This document shows, in pieces, positions 1,331-25,592 of a DNA stretch of 64,000 bases. A program made the position numbers and the translations under genes. This DNA comes from an uncultured Nitrospirales bacterium (GTDB lineage: Bacteria; Nitrospirota; Nitrospiria; Nitrospirales; UBA8639), in the NCBI GenBank assembly GCA_951812745.1, contig OX638327.1, positions 1,663,914 through 1,727,913 of the forward strand, in the 5' to 3' direction. The notes under the pieces are model-generated. The model did not search any database. It was not told the DNA's origin and saw only the letters and a program-made list of their open reading frames with translations. How positions within the stretch are numbered: position 1 is the stretch's first letter; every line of letters begins with the position of its first letter.

Positions 1331-1744
1331 CTAGTGCCCTTCTTTTACCAGGTTCTTGTTCCATTCGGGGATTTCGACGACGAGGTTGGTTGAGCCGTCG
1401 GGGACGCATTGGCAGGCCAGGCGGGATTGCAGCGTGATGGCAGGGGCTTCGTCCAACTGGTCCAATTCGTCGTCCGTGGCTTCATTGCACGTATCCAACC
1501 CTTCCTTCACAACGACGTGACAGGTCGAACAGGCGCAGACGCCGCCGCAGGCATGCTCGACGTCGAGGCCCGCGCCCATCGCAATGTCCAACAGGCTGCC
1601 CGGTTGGCCGGTTGGGCCGTACGGGATTTTATTTGGGTCCACTTGGACCTCAAGGGTTTCGTCCGGCAAACGAAAGGTCACGCTGAACGATTCCGTGGCT
1701 GTTTTGACTTCGACTTGTTCGATATATGGATTACTGCCTCCCAT
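1331..1744 (-). CDS. fdx: ISC-type [2Fe-2S] ferredoxin
   Basis: 137 aa. Adrenodoxin-type ferredoxin, the electron donor of ISC iron-sulfur assembly. Cluster ligands are C66, C72, C75 (ACGGVCACSTCH) and C111 (SRLACQC), in the C-x5-C-x2-C...C spacing of this class; C70 and C113 are extra. The fold starts near residue 15 (FSVTFRLPDETL). It lies divergently from iscR with about 215 bp between the starts. In E. coli fdx sits inside the isc operon after hscA, so here it has been moved to the other strand and probably shares a regulatory region with iscR. An alternative role as a general low-potential ferredoxin is possible, but position and sequence favour ISC. Confidence 0.88.
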   Translation of the reverse strand: MGGSNPYIEQVEVKTATESFSVTFRLPDETLEVQVDPNKIPYGPTGQPGSLLDIAMGAGLDVEHACGGVCACSTCHVVVKEGLDTCNEATDDELDQLDEAPAITLQSRLACQCVPDGSTNLVVEIPEWNKNLVKEGH

Positions 1745-1837
1745 CTGATCTCCTTTTTCCCTCAGCTAGGGAAAGATAAATTGAAGAATTACGATGTATT
1801 TTCAATAAGATAGATGATACAATGACTTTCCGGTTCG

Positions 1838-1928
1838 ATCTCCGACTGTTTTTATCTCCGACTAGAATACTCTTGACTAGGACGGAATGTCAATGCTAGG
1901 ATTTGCTCCGATGGTTTCGGTCGGAGAT
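1838..1928. promoter_or_regulatory. Three copies of ATCTCCGAC in the fdx/iscR divergent promoter region
   Basis: ATCTCCGACT occurs at 1838-1847 and again at 1854-1863, exactly 16 bp apart on the same strand. A third copy, ATCTCCGACC, lies on the opposite strand at 1919-1928. The first two are just upstream of the proposed iscR promoter and the third is downstream of it, a layout expected for an autoregulatory operator. It is not the textbook E. coli IscR type 1 sequence. Assigning it to this IscR is inference. Confidence 0.45.
1873..1902 (+). promoter_or_regulatory. Candidate sigma70 promoter of iscR operon
   Basis: TTGACT (1873-1878) and TAGGAT (1897-1902) with an 18-bp spacer, placed about 58 bp before the proposed iscR start. 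The -35 is near consensus and the -10 is moderate. It lies between the ATCTCCGAC repeats. Confidence 0.45.
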
Positions 1929-1959
1929 TCATTCGCTCCACGTTTTTTGTGAGGGGTTC

Positions 1960-2442
1960 GTGCTGAAATTTTCGAAAAGAGCCGATTATGCCTTGCTGTC
2001 GCTTCAGTACATGGCCAGGGTCCAAAGCGGCATCGATGCCCACCCGCGTGTGGTGAATACCAAGGAGATTGCCGAAGAGCATAATATCCCCGTGGAATTG
2101 TTGGCGAAAGTGCTTCAGACCCTGGCCAGGCATCAACTGATCGAAAGTCATCATAACGGACCCAAGGGCGGCTACGCGTTGGGGCGGGAGCCCAAAGACA
2201 TTACCCTGGCGCAAGTGCTGGAAGCCATCGAAGGTCCCCTGGGCTTGACGGATTGTTCTCATGAAAAAGACGACCATTCCCAGTGCGAGCAGATGAATCA
2301 CTGCAATATTCGTACGCCGCTGTTCAAAATCCAGGAAAGTATCTTTCAATTGCTGAACAGCATGTCTATCGAGGATTTATTGGTTGAGGAAACACCCGTG
2401 ATTATCGTCGAATCTTTAAAGCCACAAGGAGTACCGTCATGA
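1960..2442 (+). CDS. iscR: Rrf2-family regulator IscR
   Basis: About 160 aa. Rrf2-type winged-helix repressor that senses Fe-S status and controls the ISC operon. The family N-terminus ([18 protein letters not shown]) is complete if translation begins at GTG 1960; the frame is open further upstream but that extension does not resemble the family. [10 protein letters not shown] is the wing. Three Cys lie in LTDCS, SQCEQ and NHCNI, spaced C-x9-C-x5-C (E. coli IscR is C-x5-C-x5-C), and probably bind the cluster. The stop overlaps the iscS ATG (ATGA). As first gene of the operon it probably autoregulates. NsrR or RsrR identity is less likely given the neighbours. Confidence 0.87.
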
Positions 2443-3653
2443 AGTTACCCATTTATATGGACAACCATTCGACCACGCCCTGCGACCCTCGCGTGGTGGA
2501 TGCGATGCTCCCGTATTTCACCGAAAAGTTCGGCAATTCCGCGAGCCGGAACCATTCCTTCGGTTGGGAAGCCGAAGAGGGTGTGGATCAGGCGCGCAAA
2601 CATATTGCCAATCTCATTCACGCCGACGCCAAGGAGATCGTGTTCACGAGCGGAGCCACCGAGTCCGATAACCTGGCGCTGAAAGGCGTGGTCGAGATGT
2701 ATAAGGAGAAAGGTGATCACATCATCACCACGTCGACCGAACACCGCGCGGTGATCGATGCGGCGAAATCATTGGAGAAAAAAGGCGTCAAGGTGACGTA
2801 CCTGCCCGTGGACAAGGCCGGCCGGGTCGATCCGGACGACGTGCGGAACGCCATCACGGATAAAACCATTTTGATTTCGATCATGCTGGCAAATAATGAA
2901 ATCGGCACGATTCATCCCATCGCGGAGATCGGCAGGATCGCGAAGGAAAAGGGTGTGCTCTTTCATTGCGACGCCACGCAAGGGGTGGGGAAAATCCCGG
3001 TGGACGTCCAGGAACTGGGTGTCGACCTGATGTCGTTTACCGCGCACAAGATTTACGGACCCAAGGGCATCGGGGCGTTGTACGTGCGCCGGAAAGCGCC
3101 GCGCGTCCGGTTGGCGCCGATGATCGACGGGGGCGGGCATGAGCGCGGTATGCGGTCGGGTACGCTTCCGGTCCCGCTCGTGGTCGGGTTCGGGAAAGCC
3201 ATCGAGTTATGCGCGCAGGAGATGCCGGAGGAGTCCGTTCGCACGATGGCCCTTCGTGACCGCCTGCAGGACGGCATCATGGGTGCGATGGAAGAAGTCT
3301 ATCTCAACGGACACCCGACGGAGCGTCTCCCGGGGAACCTGAACATCAGTTTCGCGTACGTCGAAGGGGAAGCCTTGTTGATGGGGGTCAAGGAAATCGC
3401 CCTGTCGTCGGGATCGGCTTGCACGTCGGCCACCCTTGAGCCATCATACGTTCTTCGTGCCTTGGGGGTCGGGTCCGATCTGGCGCATTCCTCGATCCGG
3501 TTCGGCATCGGTCGATTTACGACGCCGGAAGAAGTAGAATATACCATCGACCGGATGATCAAGGCGGTCAATCACCTTCGCGAAATGTCGCCCCTCTATG
3601 AAATGGCAAAGGAAGGCGTTGACCTCAAGACGGTTCAATGGGCGGTGCACTGA
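2439..3653 (+). CDS. iscS: Cysteine desulfurase IscS
   Basis: 404 aa, the usual IscS length. PLP enzyme that removes sulfur from cysteine and passes it as persulfide to IscU. PLP-binding Lys is K204 in [12 protein letters not shown]. The active-site Cys is C328 in [10 protein letters not shown], the same number as in E. coli IscS. H102 (STEHRAV) stacks on the cofactor in the family. The start codon overlaps the iscR stop (ATGA) and is preceded by AAGGAG, so iscR and iscS are translationally coupled. It is followed by iscU after 59 bp. Confidence 0.96.
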
Positions 3654-3712
3654 GCAGGCAGGCAAGGCATACACGGTCTTTATAAATTTCCGCGTACAAG
3701 GAGGGTGGTATC

Positions 3713-4126
3713 ATGGCATACAGTGAAAAAGTGATCGACCATTACAACAATCCTCGCAACATGGGGTCGTTCAAGAAAGAAGAAGACGGCGTGGGGACCG
3801 GCATCGTCGGAGCCCCCGAATGCGGCGACGTGATGAAATTGCAGATCAAAGTGGAAAACGACACGATCGTGGATGCGAAATTCAAAACCTTCGGGTGCGG
3901 GTCGGCGATTGCCAGTTCCAGTTTGGCCACGGAGTGGTTGAAGGGCAAAACCGTGGATCAAGCGGGACAGATCAAGAATACCGAGATCGTGCAGGAGTTG
4001 AACCTTCCCCCGGTCAAAATCCACTGTTCCGTGTTGGCGGAAGACGCGATCAAAGCCGCCTTGAACGATTACAAAAAGAAAGCGGACACGGAGGGCGAGA
4101 CCGCAGAGGCGGCCACGCCTGCCTGA
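3713..4126 (+). CDS. iscU: Fe-S cluster scaffold protein IscU
   Basis: 137 aa. Scaffold on which [2Fe-2S] clusters are built from IscS sulfur. Ligand residues C37, D39, C62 and C105 are present (PECGDVM, FGCGSA, IHCSV). The LPPVK motif bound by HscA is at 98-102, directly before HC. The C-terminal tail (KKADTEGETAEAATPA) is about 10 residues longer than in E. coli and acidic. A strong AAGGAGG site lies upstream. The iscA gene follows closely. Confidence 0.96.
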   Translation: MAYSEKVIDHYNNPRNMGSFKKEEDGVGTGIVGAPECGDVMKLQIKVENDTIVDAKFKTFGCGSAIASSSLATEWLKGKTVDQAGQIKNTEIVQELNLPPVKIHCSVLAEDAIKAALNDYKKKADTEGETAEAATPA

Positions 4127-4152
4127 CCCGCTGAAGTGCAAGGAGCGCAGTG

Positions 4153-4524
4153 ATGGAGACGACACACACGACGGAATCCTCACCGGCCACGCAGACCCCT
4201 CTCGTCACGCTCACGGACGCGGCGGTTGTCGAAGTGAAACGGCTCATGGACGTGCAGGATCTGACCGAAGGCGGCCTGCGTCTGGGCGTCAAAGGGGGAG
4301 GGTGTTCCGGGTTGAGTTATACGATCAATTTCGACGAGAAAATCGGCGAGTTCGATACGGTGTGCGAACAGGACAGCGTGAAAGTCATCGTCGATGCGAA
4401 GAGCGCCATTTATCTGGAAGGCATGCAGCTCGACTATCAAAAGGATATGGTCAGCGGGGGATTCAAATTTATCAATCCCAACGCGTCCAAGACCTGTGGG
4501 TGCGGAGAATCATTTTCGGCGTAA
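4153..4524 (+). CDS. iscA: A-type Fe-S carrier IscA
   Basis: 123 aa from ATG 4153. A GTG at 4150 is in frame, but the AAGGAG at 4139-4144 is better spaced for the ATG. A-type carriers accept clusters and deliver them to apoproteins, especially [4Fe-4S] enzymes. The three conserved Cys are C51 (GGGCSGL), C115 and C117 (TCGCG). The N-terminal 15 residues are Thr/Ser-rich and not conserved. Lying between iscU and hscB supports iscA rather than erpA. Confidence 0.93.
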   Translation: METTHTTESSPATQTPLVTLTDAAVVEVKRLMDVQDLTEGGLRLGVKGGGCSGLSYTINFDEKIGEFDTVCEQDSVKVIVDAKSAIYLEGMQLDYQKDMVSGGFKFINPNASKTCGCGESFSA

Positions 4525-4610
4525 CACGTCGAACGGGGTTGCGTGACAATCGGGGAGCAAGCCGTCGGGCATGGTGAAGTCCTACCATGCCCGTTGTGCG
4601 AGAGAGGGAG

Positions 4611-5372
4611 ATGAGCGAACACACCCATCAACCGGAATCGGGACGGGCCCGCGAGTTGCCGATGGCCCGCAGCATGTGCTGGCATTGTCAATCCGAAATG
4701 ACCGGCGAGTATTTTTGCGGCCGGTGCGTCAAGGTGCAACCGCTCTCCAAGGAACTCGACTATTTTACCTGCCTGAACCTGCCCCGCAAACTGAACCTCG
4801 ACGAACAGGCGCTTGAGGAAACCTTCTACGCCTTGAGCCGGAGCTTTCATCCCGACTATTACGCGACGAAAGACGAAGGGGAAAAGGCGATCAGTCTCGG
4901 CAACACGGCGTTATTGAACACGGCGTATCGAACGTTGAAAGACCCCGTGCAACGAGCGGAGTACCTGATTCGTCTGGAAGCGGGGTCGGCCAAGGATATT
5001 CGGAACTCCCCTCCGGCCGACTTGTTCGATGAAATCCTGGAACTGCAGGAGGATTTGGACGAGTTTCGGTCTTTGTCCGCCGGGGAGTCCGACGAACGCC
5101 GGCAGGAGCTCCTGGAGAAGTTGCAAGCCGACCGCCGGACGCTCGAAGCGCGAAAAGCGCAAATGGAAGATCGCCTGCGGGAGCAGTTCAGCCGGTGGGA
5201 CGCCCTGCCGACCGAAGCCGAAGGTGAGGCCACCGTCCGGTCGCAGAAAGACGCGGTGCTCGCGGGCATGCAGGAAATTTTATCGAACCGCACGTATGTG
5301 AAGAATATCGTGAATGATCTGGTGGCGGCGACCAGCCCCACCGCCGAACCCGGAAGGAGTGCATGGCATTGA
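4611..5372 (+). CDS. hscB: Co-chaperone HscB with N-terminal zinc-finger extension
   Basis: 253 aa from ATG 4611, chosen because a purine-rich GAGAGGGAG precedes it; ATG 4587 is an in-frame alternative. J-domain co-chaperone that presents IscU to HscA. The HPD triad is at 80-82 (RSFHPDYY) and the C-terminal three-helix IscU-binding region follows. It differs from E. coli HscB (171 aa) in having a Cys4 knuckle, C23/C26 and C36/C39 (CWHC...CGRC), before the J-domain, as in eukaryotic HSC20. The region 135-210 (about EILELQEDLDEFR onward) is strongly charged and longer than usual. The end overlaps the hscA start by 10 bp. Confidence 0.9.
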   Translation: MSEHTHQPESGRARELPMARSMCWHCQSEMTGEYFCGRCVKVQPLSKELDYFTCLNLPRKLNLDEQALEETFYALSRSFHPDYYATKDEGEKAISLGNTALLNTAYRTLKDPVQRAEYLIRLEAGSAKDIRNSPPADLFDEILELQEDLDEFRSLSAGESDERRQELLEKLQADRRTLEARKAQMEDRLREQFSRWDALPTEAEGEATVRSQKDAVLAGMQEILSNRTYVKNIVNDLVAATSPTAEPGRSAWH

Positions 5373-7186
5373 TCGTCGGCATTGACCTCGGAACGACGAA
5401 TTCATTGGTCGCCTACATGGCCGGCGACGGCCCGCAGGTCATATCCGGAACGCGCGGCCAGGCCAAAGTGCCCTCGATCGTCGGCCTCACGGACAATGGT
5501 CTCCTGGTCGGAGATCCCGCCAAGGAATATCTCGTCCGCGATCCGTCCCGAACGATTTATTCCGTGAAGCGGTTCATGGGGAAAGCCATCGCGGACGTGG
5601 CGGAAGAATTGAAATATTTCCCGTATGCCTTGCAGGAAAAAGGCGGCGTGATTCGCATCCAGGTCGGGGAGAAAACCTATTCGCCCCCGCAAATCTCCGC
5701 CATGATTTTGAAGGAACTCAAGCTGCGGGCGGAAGCGCACCTGGGTGAGGAAATTACCAAAGCCGTCATTACGGTCCCGGCGTATTTCAACGACAGCCAG
5801 CGACAGGCGACGAAAGACGCCGGCCTCATTGCGGGCCTGGAAGTGCTGCGCATCATCAATGAACCCACGGCGGCGTCCTTGGCCTATGGGCTGCAACAGA
5901 ACACGCAGGGGTGCGTGGCCGTTTATGACCTCGGCGGCGGCACCTTCGACATCTCCATCCTGAAACTCAAGGATGGCATCTTCGAGGTGCTGGCGACCAA
6001 CGGGAATACGCATCTCGGCGGGGATGATTTCGACCGGCGGCTGGTGGACGAGGTCATACGGGACATCGACACCCGGCACGGCGTGAAAGTGGAAGATTCG
6101 CCGGAACTGATGCAAATGGTTCGGCTCGAAGCCGAGAAAACCAAAATTCGATTGTCGGACGAGCCGCAGGCTCTTATGGTTTTCTCCCTTCCGGACGGAA
6201 AAGGCACCTATGAACGAACGTGGTCACGTGATGAATTCGAGGCCCTGGTCCTGGACCTGGTCGAACACACCATGACCCCTTGTCGCCGCGCGTTGAGCGA
6301 CGCGGGCCTGGAGACCGGTCAAATCGACGAAGTGGTGTTGGTGGGCGGCAGTACCCGGATGCCGGTGATTCGATCGCGCGTGCAGGAGTTGTTCGGGAAG
6401 ACGCCCCATTGTGACCTGAATCCCGATGAAGTGGTGGCGCTGGGGGCAGCGGTTCAGGCCGGCATTCTGGCCGGGGAGAACAAGGACATGCTCCTGCTCG
6501 ACGTGACCCCGTTGTCCCTGGGCATTGAAACCATGGGCAACGTCGTGAGCATTCTGATCCGCCGGAATACGACCATCCCGACGAGCGCCAAGGAAATGTT
6601 CACCACCTACGTGGACGGCCAAACCGGCGTGGACATTCACGTGCTGCAAGGCGAACGCGAACTGGTGAAGGACAACAGAAGCCTGGCACGATTTCAGCTC
6701 AAGCTCCCGCCGTTGCCCGCGGCCGTGCCTCGCGTTGAAGTCACGTTTCTGATCGACGCGAACGGCATTCTCAACGTCACGGCGTCGGATATCCGGACCG
6801 GCGAATCGCAATCCGTTCAAGTCAAACCCTCTTACGGGCTGACGGATGACGAAGTCGAAACGATGATTCGGGAATCATTCCAATTCGCGGCGGAAGATAT
6901 CAAGGCGCGTCAGGTGATCGAGGCGAGGACGGAGGCCGATGCCATCATCATGGCCACCGAGAAGGCGCTGCAACGGGGAACGGACCTGATCCCGGCGGAA
7001 GAAATCGAGTCCATTCATCACGCGATCGAGGCATTGCGCGTCGCCAAGGCTCAAGAGGACCATCGACAGATCCGGGCCGGGATTGCCGACATGGAAAAAG
7101 TGACGCACCACCTGGCCGAAGTCCTGATGGATGCCACGCTCAAAGAAGCGCTCGAAAGCAAAAAACTGTCTGAAGTCACTGATTGA
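5363..7186 (+). CDS. hscA: Hsp70-type chaperone HscA
   Basis: 607 aa, typical for HscA (616 in E. coli). Specialised Hsp70 that uses ATP to drive cluster release from IscU by binding its LPPVK motif. GIDLGTTNS near residue 6 is the first phosphate loop; VYDLGGGTFD and VLVGGSTRMP are the other nucleotide-binding signatures. The linker LLLLDVTPLSLGIE leads into the substrate domain. GGAAGGAG sits just ahead of the ATG, inside the end of hscB, so the two are coupled. Confidence 0.95.
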   Translation: MALIVGIDLGTTNSLVAYMAGDGPQVISGTRGQAKVPSIVGLTDNGLLVGDPAKEYLVRDPSRTIYSVKRFMGKAIADVAEELKYFPYALQEKGGVIRIQVGEKTYSPPQISAMILKELKLRAEAHLGEEITKAVITVPAYFNDSQRQATKDAGLIAGLEVLRIINEPTAASLAYGLQQNTQGCVAVYDLGGGTFDISILKLKDGIFEVLATNGNTHLGGDDFDRRLVDEVIRDIDTRHGVKVEDSPELMQMVRLEAEKTKIRLSDEPQALMVFSLPDGKGTYERTWSRDEFEALVLDLVEHTMTPCRRALSDAGLETGQIDEVVLVGGSTRMPVIRSRVQELFGKTPHCDLNPDEVVALGAAVQAGILAGENKDMLLLDVTPLSLGIETMGNVVSILIRRNTTIPTSAKEMFTTYVDGQTGVDIHVLQGERELVKDNRSLARFQLKLPPLPAAVPRVEVTFLIDANGILNVTASDIRTGESQSVQVKPSYGLTDDEVETMIRESFQFAAEDIKARQVIEARTEADAIIMATEKALQRGTDLIPAEEIESIHHAIEALRVAKAQEDHRQIRAGIADMEKVTHHLAEVLMDATLKEALESKKLSEVTD

Positions 7187-16463: not shown

Positions 16464-17825
16464 TTAGCCCGCTTTGGGCGGAAGAGAGAGGATACGTGCA
16501 ATGGCGCCCGCTGCCGTGGCTCGTACGGCTTCGTTCTGATCGTTCATGAGCGTTTTGAGACGGGGGACCAGTTCTCGTCCACCCACCCTGCCCAATGACC
16601 TGGCGGCTGAAATTCGAGGTTTCGGCACGGGGTCGTTGAGCAGGAGCAATAAAGGCCCCACCACGTCGCGGGCACGGCCATGACCCAATGCTTTCGCCAC
16701 GGAGGAACGCAGGCCCGGATTCTGTTGCCCCATCAATTCCCGCACCGTTCCGGCCACGACGCTGAACGGACTGCTCAACTGCAGCAAGCCCGCCACCGCC
16801 GCAGCCCGCACGCCCATATTGCGATCCTGCAAGGCTTTCATCAATGGAGAAACCGCCCGTTCGGCCTTGAGTTTCCCCAACGTCACGGCAGCCACGCTTC
16901 GGACGGCCGGGACAGGGTCGGCCAGCGCCTTGATCAGAAAGGGAACGCCTTCGGCTGAACCGAGTTTCCCCAGCGAGGCCGCCGCTGCCGCGCGAATCGA
17001 CGGCTGTTTATCACGAAGCCCCTGTTCGAGAAAAGGCAGCCCTTTGGGATCCCCGATTTCCCCGAGCATCCGTAGCGCCGCCCCTCGTTCATAACCCTCC
17101 GGCACGCTGGTCGCCGATTCAACGGTTTGCCAGTGTTCCATCTGCCCGAGTCGATACAACGCCGCGGCAGCCGCAACCTGCACGACCCGTTGCTCATCCT
17201 TGAGCAAAGGACCGATGAGAGGAATCGTCTCGGAATCTCCCCACTGGCCCAAGGCCTTCAAGACCGTGACCCTGACCAATCCCGCCTGATCCCTGAGCGC
17301 GCCGCGAAAACTCTCCGATTGCCGTCCGGCCGGAAACTTCCCGATGCCCTCGGCAACCAACACCCGGATCATGCCTGACCCGTCGCTGAGCCCGTCCTGA
17401 AAATACGGGACAACCTCGTCGGAAGGTATTTCCTTTAATGCCGAATAGGCAGCCCCTCTCACCTGCTCACGCATATCCGCCCTGAAGGGCAGAATACTCT
17501 GGACGGCCAGTTCTCGAAGAAGCCCTTCGTCTTCTCTCTTCCCGACGAATTGGTCATAGACCTCGATGCCTTCCGCAGTTTTTCCAAGCCGTGCCAAACT
17601 CAGCATCTTGAAACGAAAAGCTGCCCGCCGCCAACGCGCATCGCCGAGGAGAGATTCAACGAGTTCTACGGTCCGCTGAAAATCGGCCTGTTCGAACGCC
17701 CGTTCGGCAAGGCCAAGCCTCTCTTCGGGAGACGTTTGGCCCGCAACCGTACCGCCAAGCAACACCACGCCACAGGCCGCCGCCACAAAAAACGCTCCCC
17801 ATATTCCCATGGGCTTATCCCTCAT
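16464..17825 (-). CDS. Secreted HEAT-repeat protein
   Basis: 453 aa. An N-terminal signal segment (IWGAFFVAAACGVVLLGGTVAGQ) precedes a TPR-like helical pair (ERAFEQADFQRTVELVESLL). From about residue 120 on there are nine or ten HEAT/PBS-lyase repeats of about 31 residues, each with the V(R/Q)xxAAxALGxxG pattern, e.g. SIRAAAAASLGKLGS and AVRSVAAVTLGKLKA. Such solenoids are protein-binding scaffolds. It is the last gene of a four-gene operon headed by two cupredoxin-like genes; its start lies 11 bp inside the preceding gene. The role is unknown; perhaps it holds the periplasmic copper proteins together (speculative). Confidence 0.8.
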   Translation of the reverse strand: MRDKPMGIWGAFFVAAACGVVLLGGTVAGQTSPEERLGLAERAFEQADFQRTVELVESLLGDARWRRAAFRFKMLSLARLGKTAEGIEVYDQFVGKREDEGLLRELAVQSILPFRADMREQVRGAAYSALKEIPSDEVVPYFQDGLSDGSGMIRVLVAEGIGKFPAGRQSESFRGALRDQAGLVRVTVLKALGQWGDSETIPLIGPLLKDEQRVVQVAAAAALYRLGQMEHWQTVESATSVPEGYERGAALRMLGEIGDPKGLPFLEQGLRDKQPSIRAAAAASLGKLGSAEGVPFLIKALADPVPAVRSVAAVTLGKLKAERAVSPLMKALQDRNMGVRAAAVAGLLQLSSPFSVVAGTVRELMGQQNPGLRSSVAKALGHGRARDVVGPLLLLLNDPVPKPRISAARSLGRVGGRELVPRLKTLMNDQNEAVRATAAGAIARILSLPPKAG

Positions 17826-18477
17826 CCGCCTGCTTTTCGGTGGCTTGGAACGTGCGATACCCCAACGGGGTTTCGAAAAAATAATCCGGTTGCTGCGAGA
17901 GAATGACTCGCCCGTATTCCACCGACCAATCCCGATCCTGACTCACGAGCTTTAGCAGCAACTGTCGCGCCTCATCGATCCATTGATAATACGTCTCCCG
18001 GCGATCGTGGCGATCCACCACCACTTCATACAACGTGGCTTCCTGGTCGCCGACCATGGCATCGCCGATCCGGGATCGGGACACTTCCCCGTCCAACGTC
18101 ACGGCAAGAGGAAGTACGTAGTCCAGGGTCAAGGGAACCTCCATCACCAGACGGCGTTGGGACAGGATGTACCACACCTGCTGTTTGTCCAGCCGGACGA
18201 TCGTGACCGTGGCATAGCCCAAATCCGTTTTGATCCCTCCCCGATGTTCGATCCGGTAGCGATTCCCTTTCACGAACAATTGAGCGTGTGAGGTTTTCCC
18301 GCCGGTCCGCCACGTCAGACGGGCCGAAAATTCCAGAGCTCCCGAATCCCGTGATGCCCGAACCCCTGTACCGTAAGCATGAATATCGGAAAGGGGCAAG
18401 AGGAACATGTAAAACAGAAAAACGGGAAGGAGCCGAGACCACCCGGATCGGGTTGAACGGAAGACCATGACCACCAT
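17815..18477 (-). CDS. LolA-like periplasmic protein
   Basis: 220 aa. A hydrophobic signal segment (LLPVFLFYMFLLPLSDIHAYG) is followed by an antiparallel beta-sheet pattern reminiscent of the LolA/LolB or DUF4412 fold: LEFSARLTWRTGG, AQLFVKGNRYRIEHR, KQQVWYILSQRRLVMEVP, ATLYEVVVD, RQLLLKLVSQD. Such folds bind lipid or lipoprotein acyl chains. The start is 3 bp after the preceding stop and the end overlaps the HEAT gene, so it is firmly in the operon. The fold assignment is from pattern only. Confidence 0.65.
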   Translation of the reverse strand: MVVMVFRSTRSGWSRLLPVFLFYMFLLPLSDIHAYGTGVRASRDSGALEFSARLTWRTGGKTSHAQLFVKGNRYRIEHRGGIKTDLGYATVTIVRLDKQQVWYILSQRRLVMEVPLTLDYVLPLAVTLDGEVSRSRIGDAMVGDQEATLYEVVVDRHDRRETYYQWIDEARQLLLKLVSQDRDWSVEYGRVILSQQPDYFFETPLGYRTFQATEKQADEG

Positions 18478-18480
18478 GAG

Positions 18481-19389
18481 TTACTGGCGCTCGAGAAGGG
18501 GCTCGATCGTAAATTCCCGGCCCAAGGCCGCGGGGGTGAACCGGGGAGGCGTCCGAACCGTGAGCGCCGTCTTTCGTCGTCCCGGCGAAGGCAACTGGAA
18601 ATCGACCGTCATGTTCCCGGCCGGCTCGATGGTCACTTGCTTCTTGATGACCTGCTTGATGCCGGGATGCCACGCCCGCAGATCATACGTCCCGGGGGGG
18701 ACGTCTTCCATGGAAAATTGCCCGTTCTTGTTAGTCAGCACGTAGTACGGATTGTCCACGGCAATGGCCCAGCTTTGCATATACGCGTGAAATCCACATT
18801 GCATGGCGAACGTCCGGCGCTTTTTGCTCAACTGGAATTGCCGGACCAACGATTCTCCGGGTCTGTGATCATGGGTCGCGTGCAGGTCGCCGCGATGATG
18901 ACGGCGGTTGAAGGGCAGCGGCGAATTGAACAGCACCCGGGTCCCCATGGCGGTCGAGGTCTCGTAGGCCTGGATGTCATGCATCACGGGATCCATATTC
19001 ACCACTTCGATGCCATGCCCGCTGCGCACCACGGTCGTAAAGGGCGAAAAGCGACAATCCCGCGCTTCGACCCGCGGGACGGAAAGCGAAAACGGTTTGC
19101 CTTCCGTGACCCCCTCCAACAACACGACCACGTTCATGACCCGGCCCTGCTCGTTCACCAGAAAATCGCGAAGGAGTCGCCACCCGTTCCCGTTGGAGAT
19201 CCGTCCGCAATATTCGGGATCCGGGAAGATGACCAGGTTATACGCCTTCGGATCCGGCACCGCTCCCGAAAGGGTAACCGTTCCGCGAACCGTTCCGCCT
19301 CCGTCAATCTCTTTGACCTTATATCCCCAAACAGAGGAAACCGGGATCGAGAGGATGAGGCACAAGCCGGTTATCAGAAAAAACTGCAT
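18481..19389 (-). CDS. Secreted cupredoxin-like / carboxypeptidase-regulatory-like protein A
   Basis: 302 aa from ATG 19389, with GGAG 5 bp upstream; a TTG at 19392 is less likely. Signal peptide FFLITGLCLILSIPVSSVWG. A first beta domain begins GGTVRGTVTLSGAVP and includes C61 (YCGRIS). Then comes a cupredoxin-like segment with H137 (MDPVMHDIQAYE) and C198, H201 and M204 (MQCGFHAYMQSW). An Ig-like CarboxypepD_reg segment (NGQFSMEDVPPGTYDLRAWHPG) ends the protein. H...C-x2-H-x2-M is a plausible type 1 copper site. Paralogue of the next gene upstream in the operon. MauL-like plastocyanin/methylamine-utilisation relatives are the nearest known family. Confidence 0.72.
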   Translation of the reverse strand: MQFFLITGLCLILSIPVSSVWGYKVKEIDGGGTVRGTVTLSGAVPDPKAYNLVIFPDPEYCGRISNGNGWRLLRDFLVNEQGRVMNVVVLLEGVTEGKPFSLSVPRVEARDCRFSPFTTVVRSGHGIEVVNMDPVMHDIQAYETSTAMGTRVLFNSPLPFNRRHHRGDLHATHDHRPGESLVRQFQLSKKRRTFAMQCGFHAYMQSWAIAVDNPYYVLTNKNGQFSMEDVPPGTYDLRAWHPGIKQVIKKQVTIEPAGNMTVDFQLPSPGRRKTALTVRTPPRFTPAALGREFTIEPLLERQ

Positions 19390-19404
19390 CAATGCTCCAA
19401 ACCG

Positions 19405-20316
19405 TCAGGGCTGCTGCAGCCTGATCGACGGAATAATTTCCACGCCCTCTCCCAGCAACTCCAGGCCGAAGTGGGGGTTCTCCTGCATTTCATGCACGCT
19501 TCTTCGCTCTTTCACGGATTCATACCGGAAGTCGTGGCTGACCGTACCGTTGGCGGGAACGGTAATTTTCTGCTCCAGGTATTTTTTCATGCCGGCATGC
19601 CAGACCGTCAACGTATACTCGCCCGGAGGCACGTCCGTCAGTTCAAACCGCCCGTCTTCCTTGGTAATGGCATAATAAGGATTCTTGACCACCACGCCCC
19701 AGGAGAACATATAGGGATGGAACCCGCATTGCATGACGAAAAGGTTGCGTCCTTTCCTCAGATGAACTTTCTGAATCATGGGTCTGCCCGGCAAATGCTT
19801 ATGACTGTGCAACATGCCCAAGACCTTGTGAAACGGATTCATGGGCAAGGGTCGATTAAACAGCACCCTGGCGCCGCGCGCCCGGGCGGTTTCGTATCCC
19901 TGGATATCGTGCTCAACGGGGTCCATATTGATCACCGTAATTTCATCCTGGTCGCGCAACACGTTCACGAAAGGCAGGAAATCGCAGTCCATGGCCTCGA
20001 TCAGCACTTTGGGCACACCGAACGGCTTCCCTTGTTCAATCCCGGTGAGCATGACGACCGCGTCTTTGAGGCTGCCGTCCGGACCGATGATGAAATCTTC
20101 CACGATCCGCCATCCCGTGCCCGTGGAAATTCGTCCACAATACACCGCGTCCGGGATCGTCACCAAATTAAAGGCCATTGGACGCGGCTTCTCCCCGGCG
20201 ATCGTCACGTGCCCGTTGATGGTTCCCCCGTTCGTGACTGATATCTCCTCATACGCCCATCCCGGAGACACAAACAACCCCAAGACCAGGCACAACATCC
20301 ACGTCCGCACTGCCAT
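19405..20316 (-). CDS. Secreted cupredoxin-like / carboxypeptidase-regulatory-like protein B
   Basis: 303 aa from ATG 20316, chosen because GGGAGG precedes it by 6 bp; the frame is open about 70 bp further. Signal peptide VRTWMLCLVLGLFVSPGWA. It has the same architecture as protein A, with about half the residues identical around the key motifs: C60 (YCGRIS), C111 (MDCDFLPF), H136 (DPVEHDIQGYE), and C197, H200, M203 (MQCGFHPYMFSW), then a C-terminal CarboxypepD_reg-like segment (DGRFELTDVPPGEYTL). A His-rich insert HSHKH lies at 170-174. It is the first gene of the operon and sits just downstream of the giant oxidase gene and its terminator. Confidence 0.72.
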   Translation of the reverse strand: MAVRTWMLCLVLGLFVSPGWAYEEISVTNGGTINGHVTIAGEKPRPMAFNLVTIPDAVYCGRISTGTGWRIVEDFIIGPDGSLKDAVVMLTGIEQGKPFGVPKVLIEAMDCDFLPFVNVLRDQDEITVINMDPVEHDIQGYETARARGARVLFNRPLPMNPFHKVLGMLHSHKHLPGRPMIQKVHLRKGRNLFVMQCGFHPYMFSWGVVVKNPYYAITKEDGRFELTDVPPGEYTLTVWHAGMKKYLEQKITVPANGTVSHDFRYESVKERRSVHEMQENPHFGLELLGEGVEIIPSIRLQQP

Positions 20317-20390: not shown

Positions 20391-20430
20391 ATGGAAAAAA
20401 AACGGGGAAGCCGAGATCCGGCTTCCCCGC
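20391..20430 (-). terminator. Rho-independent terminator of the giant oxidase gene
   Basis: On the minus strand CGGGGAAGCCGG pairs with CGGCTTCCCCG (plus 20403-20429, 4-base loop), followed by a run of eight or more T (plus-strand A run at 20394-20402). It isolates the oxidase transcript from the cupredoxin operon, which then needs its own promoter in the 75 bp that remain. Confidence 0.88.
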
Positions 20431-20462: not shown

Positions 20463-23400
20463 TTATTTGAACGAGATGGGACGAACGCTGCCTCGTTCAG
20501 GTTGAACATCCTTGGCTTCCTTGACTCCCGGGGAAGCCCCGCTCAGCGGGAGAATTCGCTGATCGTTTTTGGACAGCACGCGGAAATAGCCCCATTGCCC
20601 GGACTGGGAATACGGCAAGCGCGCGTTGCTATACACGTAATCTCCCGGCATGGAATACGGGCCACCGGCCGAGGAAATAAACGCGTCGATCCCCTCGGAC
20701 CCTGAAAATTCCACGACGCTGATTTGGTCGGCACCTTCCATGAACGGCTCGATGGGCCATTCATGTTTTTCCAGCGTGAACATGCCGTTCTGTTCGTTGC
20801 TGGCGCCAAACACGTGGATCCGAACCGGATCGCCGGCATGGGCCTCGATAATCGGCGTCGCCGGTTCATTCGGTTCATCCACGTTACAGGGTTGGAACAT
20901 CCGGCCTAACGAACATCCCTGTTCTTCACGATACAGATAGGGTTCGTTCCGGTAATTGACCCCGACCAACCCGGCCACGTTTTGGACGTACGGCATAAAG
21001 CTCGTGCCGATGATATTGTCTTCATCCTGGAAGAACAGGGCCACGTCGCGATAATTGGCCCGATGCTCATTTCCGGGGACTGTCCGATCGACGATCACGT
21101 CGGCGATCCAACTGTTCTTCTCGGAAATGTCGGCCCCGGTCTTCGGATCACGATACTGCGAACCCTTGGGACCGATCACGATCCCGCCGAACAACCCGTT
21201 CCGCGGGTTCATGGCCACGTTACCCCAATCCCACACCAGGGATTGCGTTTCCCCGACGGCCGCATCGGCATAATAGGTATAGGTCCGGCTTTCTCCGGGA
21301 GCCAAGGTTTGATCTCCCGGATTATTCCCCAGGTTCACACCCTGAGAATCCTTGGGATCGAACGCCAGGGAGAAGGCCGAGAACGAAGCCCGGCTCTCTT
21401 TCATCTTGTTGGTGAGTTTCACCTTCAGACAATCACCCACGTTGGCCCGCAAGGTCAGCGGCATGGGCTGGAACTCTCCGGAGACCTTCGCTACTTCCTC
21501 TTCCAAGACGTAGATCTTGGCATCCGGGTTGCGAACTTCGATGGTCCGTTCAAAGTCCACTTCGATGGGTTCCTCCACGTTGGGATTGAACGCCATCTGT
21601 GGATAATCGATCGCCACCACGTTGAAATTCTTTACCGGGGCATCGGCGGGACACAACGGCAACTGCTTCTTGAGGCCCGGTCCGCCAAACGCCGCGTTCG
21701 GCAACGGTTTCAAATCCGGCACTTCCTTATCCAAGACCCGGATCAAACCCCACGAGCCTTCGGACAGCTTCGAGCTCCGGCCGTTGAAATACATGTAATC
21801 CCCGGGTTGAAGTCTGGTCCCGCCGGCCTGAGGTACCACCAGGTCGTACCGTTCGGCAATGCCGATGTGAATGGAATTCTTCCGGTTGGCGTCACCGGCA
21901 TAGCGTTCGGTCAGGAAGTTATGACCGGACACGGTAAAGACGTTACTCTCGTTCATGGTCACGTCGATCAGCCGGAAGACGATGGAATCACCCAGGTACG
22001 CCCGCAACGTGACCGTACTCGGATCCCCGTGCGTACCGCTACTGAACAACTGCGAGGTTTCCGGGTTGTTGGCCAACCGTTGCGCAAAGGGTTCGGCCCG
22101 GAAATTCAAGGCGCCACCCGTGGTATGCGTCCCTCCGTTGAGGAACGGCATCGGCGTCATTTTGATCAGCTCGTTCGCCGGCATTTGGAACGACACGGTT
22201 CGTCCGGCCTCCAACGCCACTTCCACGGGCTGACCCGGAGGATTCCCGGCCGTCACCACGTTGACCGTATGCGGAACCGTATCCATGATTTGCACCATCA
22301 ATTCACGGAAACTCCCGCTCACTCCATAGCCCACGGGCTCCACCGTATGAATATCCATCACCGGACCGGTCCGTTTGGCCTCACCGGTGGACGGATCATG
22401 CCAGGTCGAACCGAACGGCTCGATCAGGAACGAACACACCGCGCCATGGGGCCACGTCGTCCCGCCGAACGCGTGGTCATGACAGAACACGGACCCCACG
22501 TCGGCATCCGCCCAAAAGCGTTGCCGCACGAATTCCACGGTCACGATGTCCCCGACCGGATGATCATGCTCCAATGGGGTCTTGAAGGTGAGAGTCTGCG
22601 ACCCACCACTCGGCGCCGCTTCTCCCCCGCCGGCACCGGGCACTTGTAATTGCTGCCCCACGGAAATCATGTCGGCGTTCGCCAGGCCGTTCAAGCTGAC
22701 CAGGGAGGCTACGTCGGTGCCGTGCTGCATGGCGATCCCGCCGAGGGTGTCCCCGGGGTTCACCGTATACATGCCACCGCCGCCCGCCGAGGCGGATTCG
22801 CCGGAACTCCCGATGGCGACGATACGCTTCACTTCCTTACCTGCAACGTTATCCGCCCCAACCAGAATCACCGTGCCGACGTGATACTGCTTGGCGTTCG
22901 TCACGTGAATCGTCCGGTCACCCTTGCCGGCCGCCTTGGTGAATTTCGCGTTCATGGGCAACGGTAACCCCTTCTCCTTTTTCTTTTCGAATAGGGTAAA
23001 GGGCCGCACGGACTGCTCATACGAAAATCCTGAAATCACCCCGTCGGACGCCTGGTTATCGAACTGCACGAAATGGAAGTGCGTGTTGATCTTCGAAGAT
23101 TGGAAATTCGTAAAGTCGTCGTCCGGCCACTCGCTGGTCAACATCCAATCCATACAATCGTAAATATTGGCGCGGAAGACCAACGGCACCTTCAAATCAT
23201 TATTGTTCCGAATCGCTTCCTCTTCTTCGTGTACCACGTACAACAACCCGTTCGGATCGACCACGGGCGGCTGATCGCCCTGGGCCGCGGACAACTCGAT
23301 CGGGAGCTTGATGAAGTGGATGTTGTACTCCTGGGAACCCGCCCGGTCCGGACACAGGCTCCACCGCCCGTTTTCACCCGGCTTCGCCGGCTTCACGGAC

Positions 23401-25592
23401 GGCTGGCCGTCTTCATCCAGATGGATCATTTCCAGCCACGGGGCAGGATTCCGGTCCGGAGCAAACGGCACCCGTTTGCCGAAATGAGGCGTCAGCCACG
23501 GCCACGCGACTTTGCCCGTTGTCGGCTCGAACCAGATGGGCCGCCGTTTTCCGGCTTCATAGCCCTGCCATTCCGGATGATATTTGGGATTCTCGGTCGT
23601 GCTTTCCTTTTCACTCATCGCACGGTCGCCGTCCCAGACCCAATCGATCACGGTCGCGTCATACGACTTGAGCTGGCCGATCTCGTCTTCCGTATGACCG
23701 GGAAGACCTCGGGTCACTAATTGCATTTCGACCCAATCGTAAATCCGAACCACGGCCGGATCGGCGTTCCAATCGCTTTTTTGGCTGTTGTCGACCAGTT
23801 TGAACTTCTTCCCGAACCAATTCACGGTGGTACCCACCAATTGATCGGAAGTCACCGGACTGGCAATACGCCCGAGACGATCGGGCAACTCGCGAAGTGG
23901 AGCCATGACATCATTTTGAATGCCGGGCTCTTGCAGGGTATTGTAAACCCGCCAGTACCCCCACATGCCGGCCACATAATGGTGCGCCACGTGACAATGG
24001 AACAGAAAGTCACCGGCCAGATATTGACAGAGCCCGGACCCGCACTCGGTTTCCAGGTCCAGCGCTTCGGAGGGCCCGATCACTTCCACGTCCACCCGGT
24101 CCGTCTTGGCACGAATGAGCGGATACTTCACGGGTCCGTTCTGCCCCTTGTGCCACATCGGCATCTGATCCACCGCCCGCGGGCTTCGGGTCCACCGGAT
24201 GGCTCCGCCGTGCGGATGATGCGAATGGAACACTTCGGACCCGCCGTGAACCAGCCGGTACTTGGCGGGATCACCCAAATAACTCCGGGGAATCGTAGGA
24301 CCGGCGTCACCGAAGGTATAGGAACTGTAGGCCATGGATTCATCTTCAAAGCCGAAATACTCGTGTTGCACGTGCATATTGTTGATACCGAACGGTTCGC
24401 TTCGGTAGTTCAGCGCCCTGGCCCCTGGCCGGTAGGCATCGGTCAATGGATCGCGTTGCGGGAGGAAGTCTCCGTGTTTATTCACCGGCCGGAAGGCTTC
24501 ATCGCCCACTTCATGATAAATCAACACGAATTCCCGGAAATCCGGTCCCATGCCGTTTTGAATAATCGCTTGCCAGCCACTCGGCATCTCGGGAGCCGGA
24601 CCCGTTCCCAGCGGATCCAGATACTTCGACCCGGCCGGTTCGACCACAAACACCCCGAACAGACCCATCACGGTCAACTCACGATCATTACTGTAACTGT
24701 GGAACTGCCGGCCCCCTTCCTGGGTATCGGGATGGATATACCATTCCAGATCCACGGGTGTGGTTTCACAATTCTCTTCACATTCTTCATCGGGGCCATA
24801 GGCGATGGCATCCGGGTTCGTCGTCGTCGCGGGCTGGCCGGTTTTGCTCACCACCATGCTGGACCCGTTGACGTGAAGGCTGACGTCTTCACCGAATTCC
24901 AACTGGTTCCGCAGCGTGACTTTCACGCAATCGCCCTGGTTGCCGCGAATCACCAAGGGTTGGATGTATTGACCCTGGATCCCGTTCTTGACGCCACCGG
25001 GATTATGGTGTCCCTCTTCTTCACGCGCTTCCGCGTTCTTGGCTTCCTCTTCCCGGACGTTCTCGATATTCTCCGTCAGCACGTACATATAGCCGGGGTA
25101 GTAATCCAGCCACTGATTCAACGTGATTTCCACGTTGATGGCAGCAATATCGTAATGCTTCACCGGAGCCGCGGCCGGGCATTTTCCACCGCCCGTCATC
25201 GCGACCGGTTCGATGTCGCCATCGGAAGCCAACAGGTAGTTGCCTTTGCCGGCACCGTATTGATGCATCATGGACATGGTGTCGTAGCCACCCGTGGGTG
25301 ATTCAGCCATTTCTTCCTGCATTTGCTGCATCAACCGCTCATGCTGCTTCTCAACAAGCGCGGCGCGTTCGGCTCTCCCCTCTTGGGCATTTTCAACGAT
25401 GGTTTGCCCTTTGAGGCGTTCGGCCCACGCAGGGGACTGGTGATTCATCCCTGAGGTTTGGATCACTGATGCCGAATCGGAAACGTCGGATTCGGCGTTG
25501 GCAAGAGGAAGCACAAAGCACGCCAGGGCTATCAGGCTTCCCCCGGCCAGAAAAGCAAATCGCTTCATGGATAAAGGATTGAAATAAAACAT
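20463..25592 (-). CDS. Giant three-module multicopper oxidase with embedded LysM domain
   Basis: 1709 aa. ATG 25592 has AAGGAGG 8 bp upstream; a signal peptide follows (KRFAFLAGGSLIALACFVLPLANA). Three modules each begin with a CPxxA segment, at C138, C747 and C1314 (CPAAAPVKHYDI, CPDRAGSQEYNI, CPADAPVKNFNV), then a conserved PLVxRxNxxDC stretch. Module 1 has H456-x2-H459-x-H461 (FHSHHPHG) and H532-C533-H534-x3-H538-x4-M543, the canonical last-domain copper motifs. Module 2 has H838-F-H840 (THFHFVQF...DG) and H1038-D-H1040 (FCHDHAF), the canonical first-domain motifs. Module 3 has no such motif. A LysM domain (YTVNPGDTLGGIA) sits at about 942-985 inside module 2. The length and six-cupredoxin look recall ceruloplasmin or MnxG-type manganese oxidases. 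The substrate is unknown. Confidence 0.88.
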   Translation of the reverse strand: MFYFNPLSMKRFAFLAGGSLIALACFVLPLANAESDVSDSASVIQTSGMNHQSPAWAERLKGQTIVENAQEGRAERAALVEKQHERLMQQMQEEMAESPTGGYDTMSMMHQYGAGKGNYLLASDGDIEPVAMTGGGKCPAAAPVKHYDIAAINVEITLNQWLDYYPGYMYVLTENIENVREEEAKNAEAREEEGHHNPGGVKNGIQGQYIQPLVIRGNQGDCVKVTLRNQLEFGEDVSLHVNGSSMVVSKTGQPATTTNPDAIAYGPDEECEENCETTPVDLEWYIHPDTQEGGRQFHSYSNDRELTVMGLFGVFVVEPAGSKYLDPLGTGPAPEMPSGWQAIIQNGMGPDFREFVLIYHEVGDEAFRPVNKHGDFLPQRDPLTDAYRPGARALNYRSEPFGINNMHVQHEYFGFEDESMAYSSYTFGDAGPTIPRSYLGDPAKYRLVHGGSEVFHSHHPHGGAIRWTRSPRAVDQMPMWHKGQNGPVKYPLIRAKTDRVDVEVIGPSEALDLETECGSGLCQYLAGDFLFHCHVAHHYVAGMWGYWRVYNTLQEPGIQNDVMAPLRELPDRLGRIASPVTSDQLVGTTVNWFGKKFKLVDNSQKSDWNADPAVVRIYDWVEMQLVTRGLPGHTEDEIGQLKSYDATVIDWVWDGDRAMSEKESTTENPKYHPEWQGYEAGKRRPIWFEPTTGKVAWPWLTPHFGKRVPFAPDRNPAPWLEMIHLDEDGQPSVKPAKPGENGRWSLCPDRAGSQEYNIHFIKLPIELSAAQGDQPPVVDPNGLLYVVHEEEEAIRNNNDLKVPLVFRANIYDCMDWMLTSEWPDDDFTNFQSSKINTHFHFVQFDNQASDGVISGFSYEQSVRPFTLFEKKKEKGLPLPMNAKFTKAAGKGDRTIHVTNAKQYHVGTVILVGADNVAGKEVKRIVAIGSSGESASAGGGGMYTVNPGDTLGGIAMQHGTDVASLVSLNGLANADMISVGQQLQVPGAGGGEAAPSGGSQTLTFKTPLEHDHPVGDIVTVEFVRQRFWADADVGSVFCHDHAFGGTTWPHGAVCSFLIEPFGSTWHDPSTGEAKRTGPVMDIHTVEPVGYGVSGSFRELMVQIMDTVPHTVNVVTAGNPPGQPVEVALEAGRTVSFQMPANELIKMTPMPFLNGGTHTTGGALNFRAEPFAQRLANNPETSQLFSSGTHGDPSTVTLRAYLGDSIVFRLIDVTMNESNVFTVSGHNFLTERYAGDANRKNSIHIGIAERYDLVVPQAGGTRLQPGDYMYFNGRSSKLSEGSWGLIRVLDKEVPDLKPLPNAAFGGPGLKKQLPLCPADAPVKNFNVVAIDYPQMAFNPNVEEPIEVDFERTIEVRNPDAKIYVLEEEVAKVSGEFQPMPLTLRANVGDCLKVKLTNKMKESRASFSAFSLAFDPKDSQGVNLGNNPGDQTLAPGESRTYTYYADAAVGETQSLVWDWGNVAMNPRNGLFGGIVIGPKGSQYRDPKTGADISEKNSWIADVIVDRTVPGNEHRANYRDVALFFQDEDNIIGTSFMPYVQNVAGLVGVNYRNEPYLYREEQGCSLGRMFQPCNVDEPNEPATPIIEAHAGDPVRIHVFGASNEQNGMFTLEKHEWPIEPFMEGADQISVVEFSGSEGIDAFISSAGGPYSMPGDYVYSNARLPYSQSGQWGYFRVLSKNDQRILPLSGASPGVKEAKDVQPERGSVRPISFK

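Follow-up and report, generated by a model that had tools for sequence, protein, structure and literature searches.

Gene block and transcription units

We focused on a block of five genes in the window, by which we mean the whole 64,000-nucleotide stretch of DNA analyzed here, taken from a genome of 2.35 Mb in one contig. The nearest named loci include ones from Nitrospira sp. bin75 and other Nitrospirales MAGs, suggesting that the organism is a member of GTDB genus bin75, which comprises mostly sponge-associated nitrite oxidizers (PMC11812461). Read in the direction of transcription, the block encodes a giant multicopper oxidase (MCO), two cupredoxin-like proteins (referred to as A and B here), a LolA-like protein, and a HEAT-repeat protein, all on the minus strand (Table 1). 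The translations of all five start with signal-peptide-like N termini. The coordinates bear out the genes and spacings given in a first-pass annotation of this DNA, with 15 bp between A and B, 3 bp between B and the LolA-like gene, and an 11-bp overlap between the LolA-like and HEAT genes. Elsewhere in the window (positions 1331 to 7186), IscR/IscS/IscU-like and HscA-like chaperone genes have, judged from translations only, the look of an iron-sulfur cluster assembly locus.

Table 1 Features of the MCO-cupredoxin block (window positions)
Feature	Position	Strand	Description
HEAT-repeat protein	16464..17825	-	453 aa, periplasmic; Pfam HEAT_2 1e-50
LolA/LolB/RseB-fold protein	17815..18477	-	220 aa, secreted; structure model and fold matches
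Cupredoxin B	18481..19389	-	302 aa, ATG start, secreted
Cupredoxin A	19405..20316	-	303 aa, ATG start, secreted; C-terminal CarboxypepD-reg segment
Intrinsic terminator between MCO and A	20395..20429 (about)	-	9-bp G+C-rich stem and T8; kept in relatives
Giant MCO (multicopper oxidase, MnxG-like)	20463..25592	-	1709 aa

The first-pass annotation had also given the MCO gene a terminator of its own and read the oxidase and the genes behind it as separate but adjacent transcripts. The hairpin and its T8 run are present behind the MCO gene; a simple terminator scan of the window did not list this hairpin, probably because G-U pairs extend its stem into the T run. The feature is general, since a stable hairpin with a T run follows 74 of 80 MCO genes. 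It also follows 33 of 42 genes for a third cupredoxin, S3, that lies farther downstream in relatives, and just 0 to 1 percent of the genes for A, B, the LolA-like protein, the HEAT protein, and DsbH (a type of thioredoxin-domain protein found in the unit in relatives). Given that terminators stand after MCO and S3 and are scarce in between, the MCO gene and the A-to-S3 unit look like separate transcripts throughout the class, as the annotation had proposed for this locus.

Proteins of the block

The giant MCO carries the four H-x-H copper motifs of multicopper oxidases, including HCHxxxHxxxxM, at residues 456 (HSHHPHG), 532 (HCHVAHHYVAGM), 838 (HFHF), and 1038 (HDHA), and each of them is kept in 53 or 54 of 54 long homologs. 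The protein is homologous to MnxG (9bxa; E value, 3.5e-73), the large MCO of the Bacillus Mn(II) oxidase MnxEFG. It differs from MnxG in scoring 120.7 bits against the MnxG equivalog model (NCBIfam NF041487), far below the cutoff of 3100, and in having a LysM domain inserted at residues 942 to 985, a stretch that is absent from many paralogs.

Both cupredoxin-like proteins contain the ligands that the first-pass annotation had pointed out, a His and a C-x2-H-x2-M loop (H136, C197, H200, and M203 in A; H137, C198, H201, and M204 in B). The annotation would have given up its reading had these residues varied, but among 152 A/B homologs collected from 80 named loci, the loop is kept in all 152 and the first ligand His, in its context, in 149. 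FGE/SUMF1 proteins adjoining some MCO copies were excluded from the alignments. S3 is a third member of the family, with the loop in 42 of 42 sequences; in the window genome it is encoded away from the A/B block. On the basis of this ligand set, A and B probably bind copper.

A Pfam scan of A and B gave no cupredoxin domain by sequence, so the fold assignment comes from a structure model. B was modeled with AlphaFold2 (mean pLDDT, 78.5), and residues of about 103 to 211 of the model align with cupredoxins, plastocyanins and amicyanins being among the best matches (Z of about 10 to 10.8; likewise found with Foldseek), so that B has the predicted beta-sandwich of the type 1 class, and both A and B have the His/Cys/His/Met ligands of a type 1 cupredoxin. 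The model also matches carboxypeptidase N and a chain of the Kuenenia hydrazine dehydrogenase complex within the range of about 30 to 269. Since only ∼80 aligned residues are spread over this range, the model suggests that a CarboxypepD-reg/transthyretin-like domain (about 32 to 269) is split by the cupredoxin, which sits within it. When the N-terminal strands were joined to the C-terminal part of B, the full Pfam profile range was covered, with a score only ∼3 bits above that of the C-terminal part alone, a result that agrees with nesting but does not decide the matter. A and B are thus like the amicyanin/plastocyanin class in predicted fold and in the loop, which has amicyanin spacing, but they are about 300 amino acids long, their cupredoxin is apparently nested in another domain, and that cupredoxin part lacks sequence matches in the PDB: a search with B found none, and one with the B family profile matched CarboxypepD-reg-like regions only.

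The model of the 220-amino-acid protein resembles LolA, LolB, and RseB (Z of about 9 to 12). This protein belongs to no Pfam family and has no LolA match in Pfam or NCBIfam, and its relatives give weak Pfam matches to DUF4412 and MucB_RseB. The label "LolA-like" from the first-pass annotation thus holds for the fold but not for the sequence family. Matches of its profile to OspA were weak and were discarded. Judged from position and fold, the LolA-fold, HEAT, and DsbH proteins are most likely maturation factors for exported copper proteins.

Linkage of the cupredoxins to the MCO

Among 296 Nitrospirota genomes, we found 114 with the MCO and 118 with the A/B family. All 114 genomes with the MCO, each from the window's own class, also carry the A/B family; in the remaining four, where no MCO was found, the family is represented by one weak match each. 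Co-occurrence of this kind partly reflects shared ancestry, and synteny is the stronger evidence for the link. In the 80 named loci, which were picked by similarity to A/B and not to the MCO, the MCO gene lies upstream on the same strand in 65 of 65 informative cases, within 3.5 kb in 63 of them and farther away, after an inserted gene or stretch, in the other two. Downstream of the cupredoxins, the HEAT gene is present in 71 of 73 informative loci. This shows that the link between MCO and cupredoxin genes is real and that the arrangement is kept across the whole class. Gene neighborhood and phylogenetic co-occurrence, the two computational checks that the first-pass annotation had proposed, therefore both speak for its pairing of operon and oxidase, and operon homologs regularly lacking an oxidase, which it had named as counterevidence, were not seen in the Nitrospirota genomes and loci searched.

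The two cupredoxins have different duplication histories. For 28 of the 51 secondary MCO copies, the gene that follows immediately is of the A type. In our tree, B forms one supported clade (SH-aLRT, 99), and the cupredoxins behind secondary MCO copies all fall outside it, some of them grouping with A, which shows that A travels with the MCO. Hence, A has been co-duplicated with the MCO and stays with the duplicates even away from bd-like oxidase genes, while B has remained next to the genes for the LolA-fold and HEAT proteins. A reading in which the unit has nothing to do with the MCO was dropped, being contradicted by synteny and by this co-duplication.

These results bear on two alternatives for the role of A and B. 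If they were metallochaperones loading copper into the MCO, assisted in assembly by the LolA-fold, HEAT, and DsbH proteins, one would understand the A-type gene directly behind many MCO copies as well as the DsbH gene and the other maturation-like neighbors in relatives. We nevertheless consider this unlikely, since no A gene adjoins 23 of the 51 secondary MCO copies and since A and B have the full His/Cys/His/Met set in a predicted cupredoxin fold, an arrangement typical of electron carriers and not of exchange-type chaperones. By analogy with MnxG, whose activity requires two copper-binding partners encoded beside it, MnxE and MnxF (PMC5622069), A and B could instead be stable accessory subunits. 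The homology of the MCO to MnxG, the position of predicted copper-binding proteins next to it, and the co-duplication of the A-MCO pair are consistent with this notion, which we find doubtful all the same: MnxE and MnxF are proteins of about 12 kDa with no known homologs (PMC5622069), as opposed to cupredoxins of about 300 amino acids, and the conserved terminators that part the MCO from A argue against simple co-expression in a fixed ratio.

Several secondary MCO groups (loci L146 to L149, L166 to L173, and L178 to L182) have no cupredoxin directly downstream, so the requirement for a partner may vary among MCO paralogs. A further A-family gene in the window genome (395109 to 395906; loci L126, L127, and L130) shows up as a pair of distinct matches, one of them containing an internal TAG, and could be degraded. 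In locus L021 (7043 to 8110), an A-like cupredoxin gene without an MCO lies beside HEAT-repeat and peptide deformylase genes, and L131 is similar. Sigma-54 activator genes occur near the secondary MCO loci L026, L028, and L031.

A larger cluster with bd-like oxidases

In relatives, the gene order is MCO, A, B, LolA-fold protein, HEAT protein, DsbH (missing in some), S3, methyltransferase, DUF420 protein, and membrane protein, followed by a bd-like oxidase, a DUF3047-type protein, two FGE-like proteins, a second bd-like oxidase, and cytochromes c. In many of them, the unit thus runs on to two bd-like oxidases, two cytochromes c, and an alternative NxrC. The genes from HEAT to S3 are contiguous with a bd-like gene in 10 of 12 relatives inspected, and in 31 of 50 named loci, S3 follows shortly after HEAT. 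The cluster is split in the window genome: its second half, from DsbH to an NxrC-like protein with an EB_dh domain, lies at about 471 to 489 kb, about 1.2 Mb away, and includes two bd-like genes and two cytochromes c, the gene content of the bd-like_3/4-alternative NxrC cluster. The two halves are also apart in several relatives. This amends the first-pass annotation, in that the window block is the upstream portion, displaced here, of a conserved cluster of greater extent. FGE/SUMF1-like genes, often paired, are found beside bd-like oxidase genes and some secondary MCO copies (loci L035, L038, L040, and L133 to L141).

The first-pass annotation had not recognized the combination as a described pathway. 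Part of it has been described, namely, NXR-associated clusters with an MnxG-like MCO, two cupredoxin-like proteins, which may or may not correspond to A, B, or S3, and a bd-like oxidase (PMC3578206). The published bd-like_3/4 cluster of Nitrospira, Nitrospina, and anammox bacteria has the same downstream genes as found here, its bd-like oxidases are reported to lack quinol-binding residues, and it has been tied to nitrite oxidation (PMC3578206, PMC6606698, PMC8026999). Resolved here in addition are the transcription segments, the third cupredoxin, the LolA-fold, HEAT, and DsbH genes, and the co-duplication of A with the MCO, and the window genome differs in its split. In "Ca. Nitrosymbion coscinodermae," a sponge symbiont of genus bin75, there is no cbb3 oxidase, but four oxidases of the bd-like kind are present (PMC11812461).

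For the MCO itself, oxidation of Mn(II) to Mn(III) as a defense against reactive oxygen has been proposed (PMC3578206), in which case the cupredoxins would be peripheral or take part in stress-linked redox cycling. The MnxG similarity and the conserved copper motifs agree with this proposal, but the substrate of the MCO cannot be read from its sequence, and the association of the unit with bd-like oxidases and NxrC in relatives is more in keeping with respiration. We regard this reading of MCO and cupredoxins as highly unlikely.

Proposed role of the cupredoxins

How electrons from nitrite reach oxygen in Nitrospira, via uncharacterized bd-like oxidases, is a long-standing open question. We see an even chance that A, B, and S3 are periplasmic type 1 copper electron carriers of a conserved Nitrospiria oxidase/MCO module. 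Besides the giant MCO, this module includes, in genomes with a contiguous cluster, a pair of bd-like (OR-N/CydAA'-type) oxidases, a pair of cytochromes c, and an alternative NxrC. Electrons of high potential, derived from nitrite, would pass from NxrC via cytochrome c to the cupredoxins and on to a bd-like oxidase and/or the type 1 copper of the MCO. A would be the MCO-facing partner and B part of the LolA-fold/HEAT unit, whose proteins, together with DsbH, would help to fold and load exported copper proteins. Electron transfer itself, the way it runs, and the partners involved are putative, and so are the roles suggested in the first-pass annotation, namely, electron carriage or copper supply by the pair and assembly by the LolA-like and HEAT proteins. 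We favor this carrier model because the type 1 site is complete and conserved, because the genes cluster with oxidases reported to lack quinol-binding residues, and because three cupredoxins recur.

Counting against the carrier model are the separation of the cluster halves in the window genome and several relatives and the fact that S3 stands near HEAT in only 31 of 50 loci. The A copies that accompany MCO duplicates away from bd-like genes favor an MCO-specific role, and MCOs usually need no additional carrier to oxidize a substrate and reduce O2. For OR-N oxidases, cytochrome c has been reported to be the likely electron donor (PMC10839748); with cytochromes c encoded in the same cluster, that step may do without cupredoxins, and the carrier model stays a proposal. 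Given that the arrangement is class-wide and often joined to genes of oxygen-reducing enzymes, the three syntenic cupredoxins, tied to the MCO and often to bd-like oxidases and the alternative NxrC, are good candidates in this little-understood electron wiring, whether they fill the place of the missing carriers or act as partners of the MCO. A bolder variant, which we consider quite unlikely, would see the giant MCO as an O2 reductase of the periplasm, soluble and copper-only, that receives its electrons from cupredoxin A, that is, a second, heme-free terminal oxidase branch in nitrite oxidizers.
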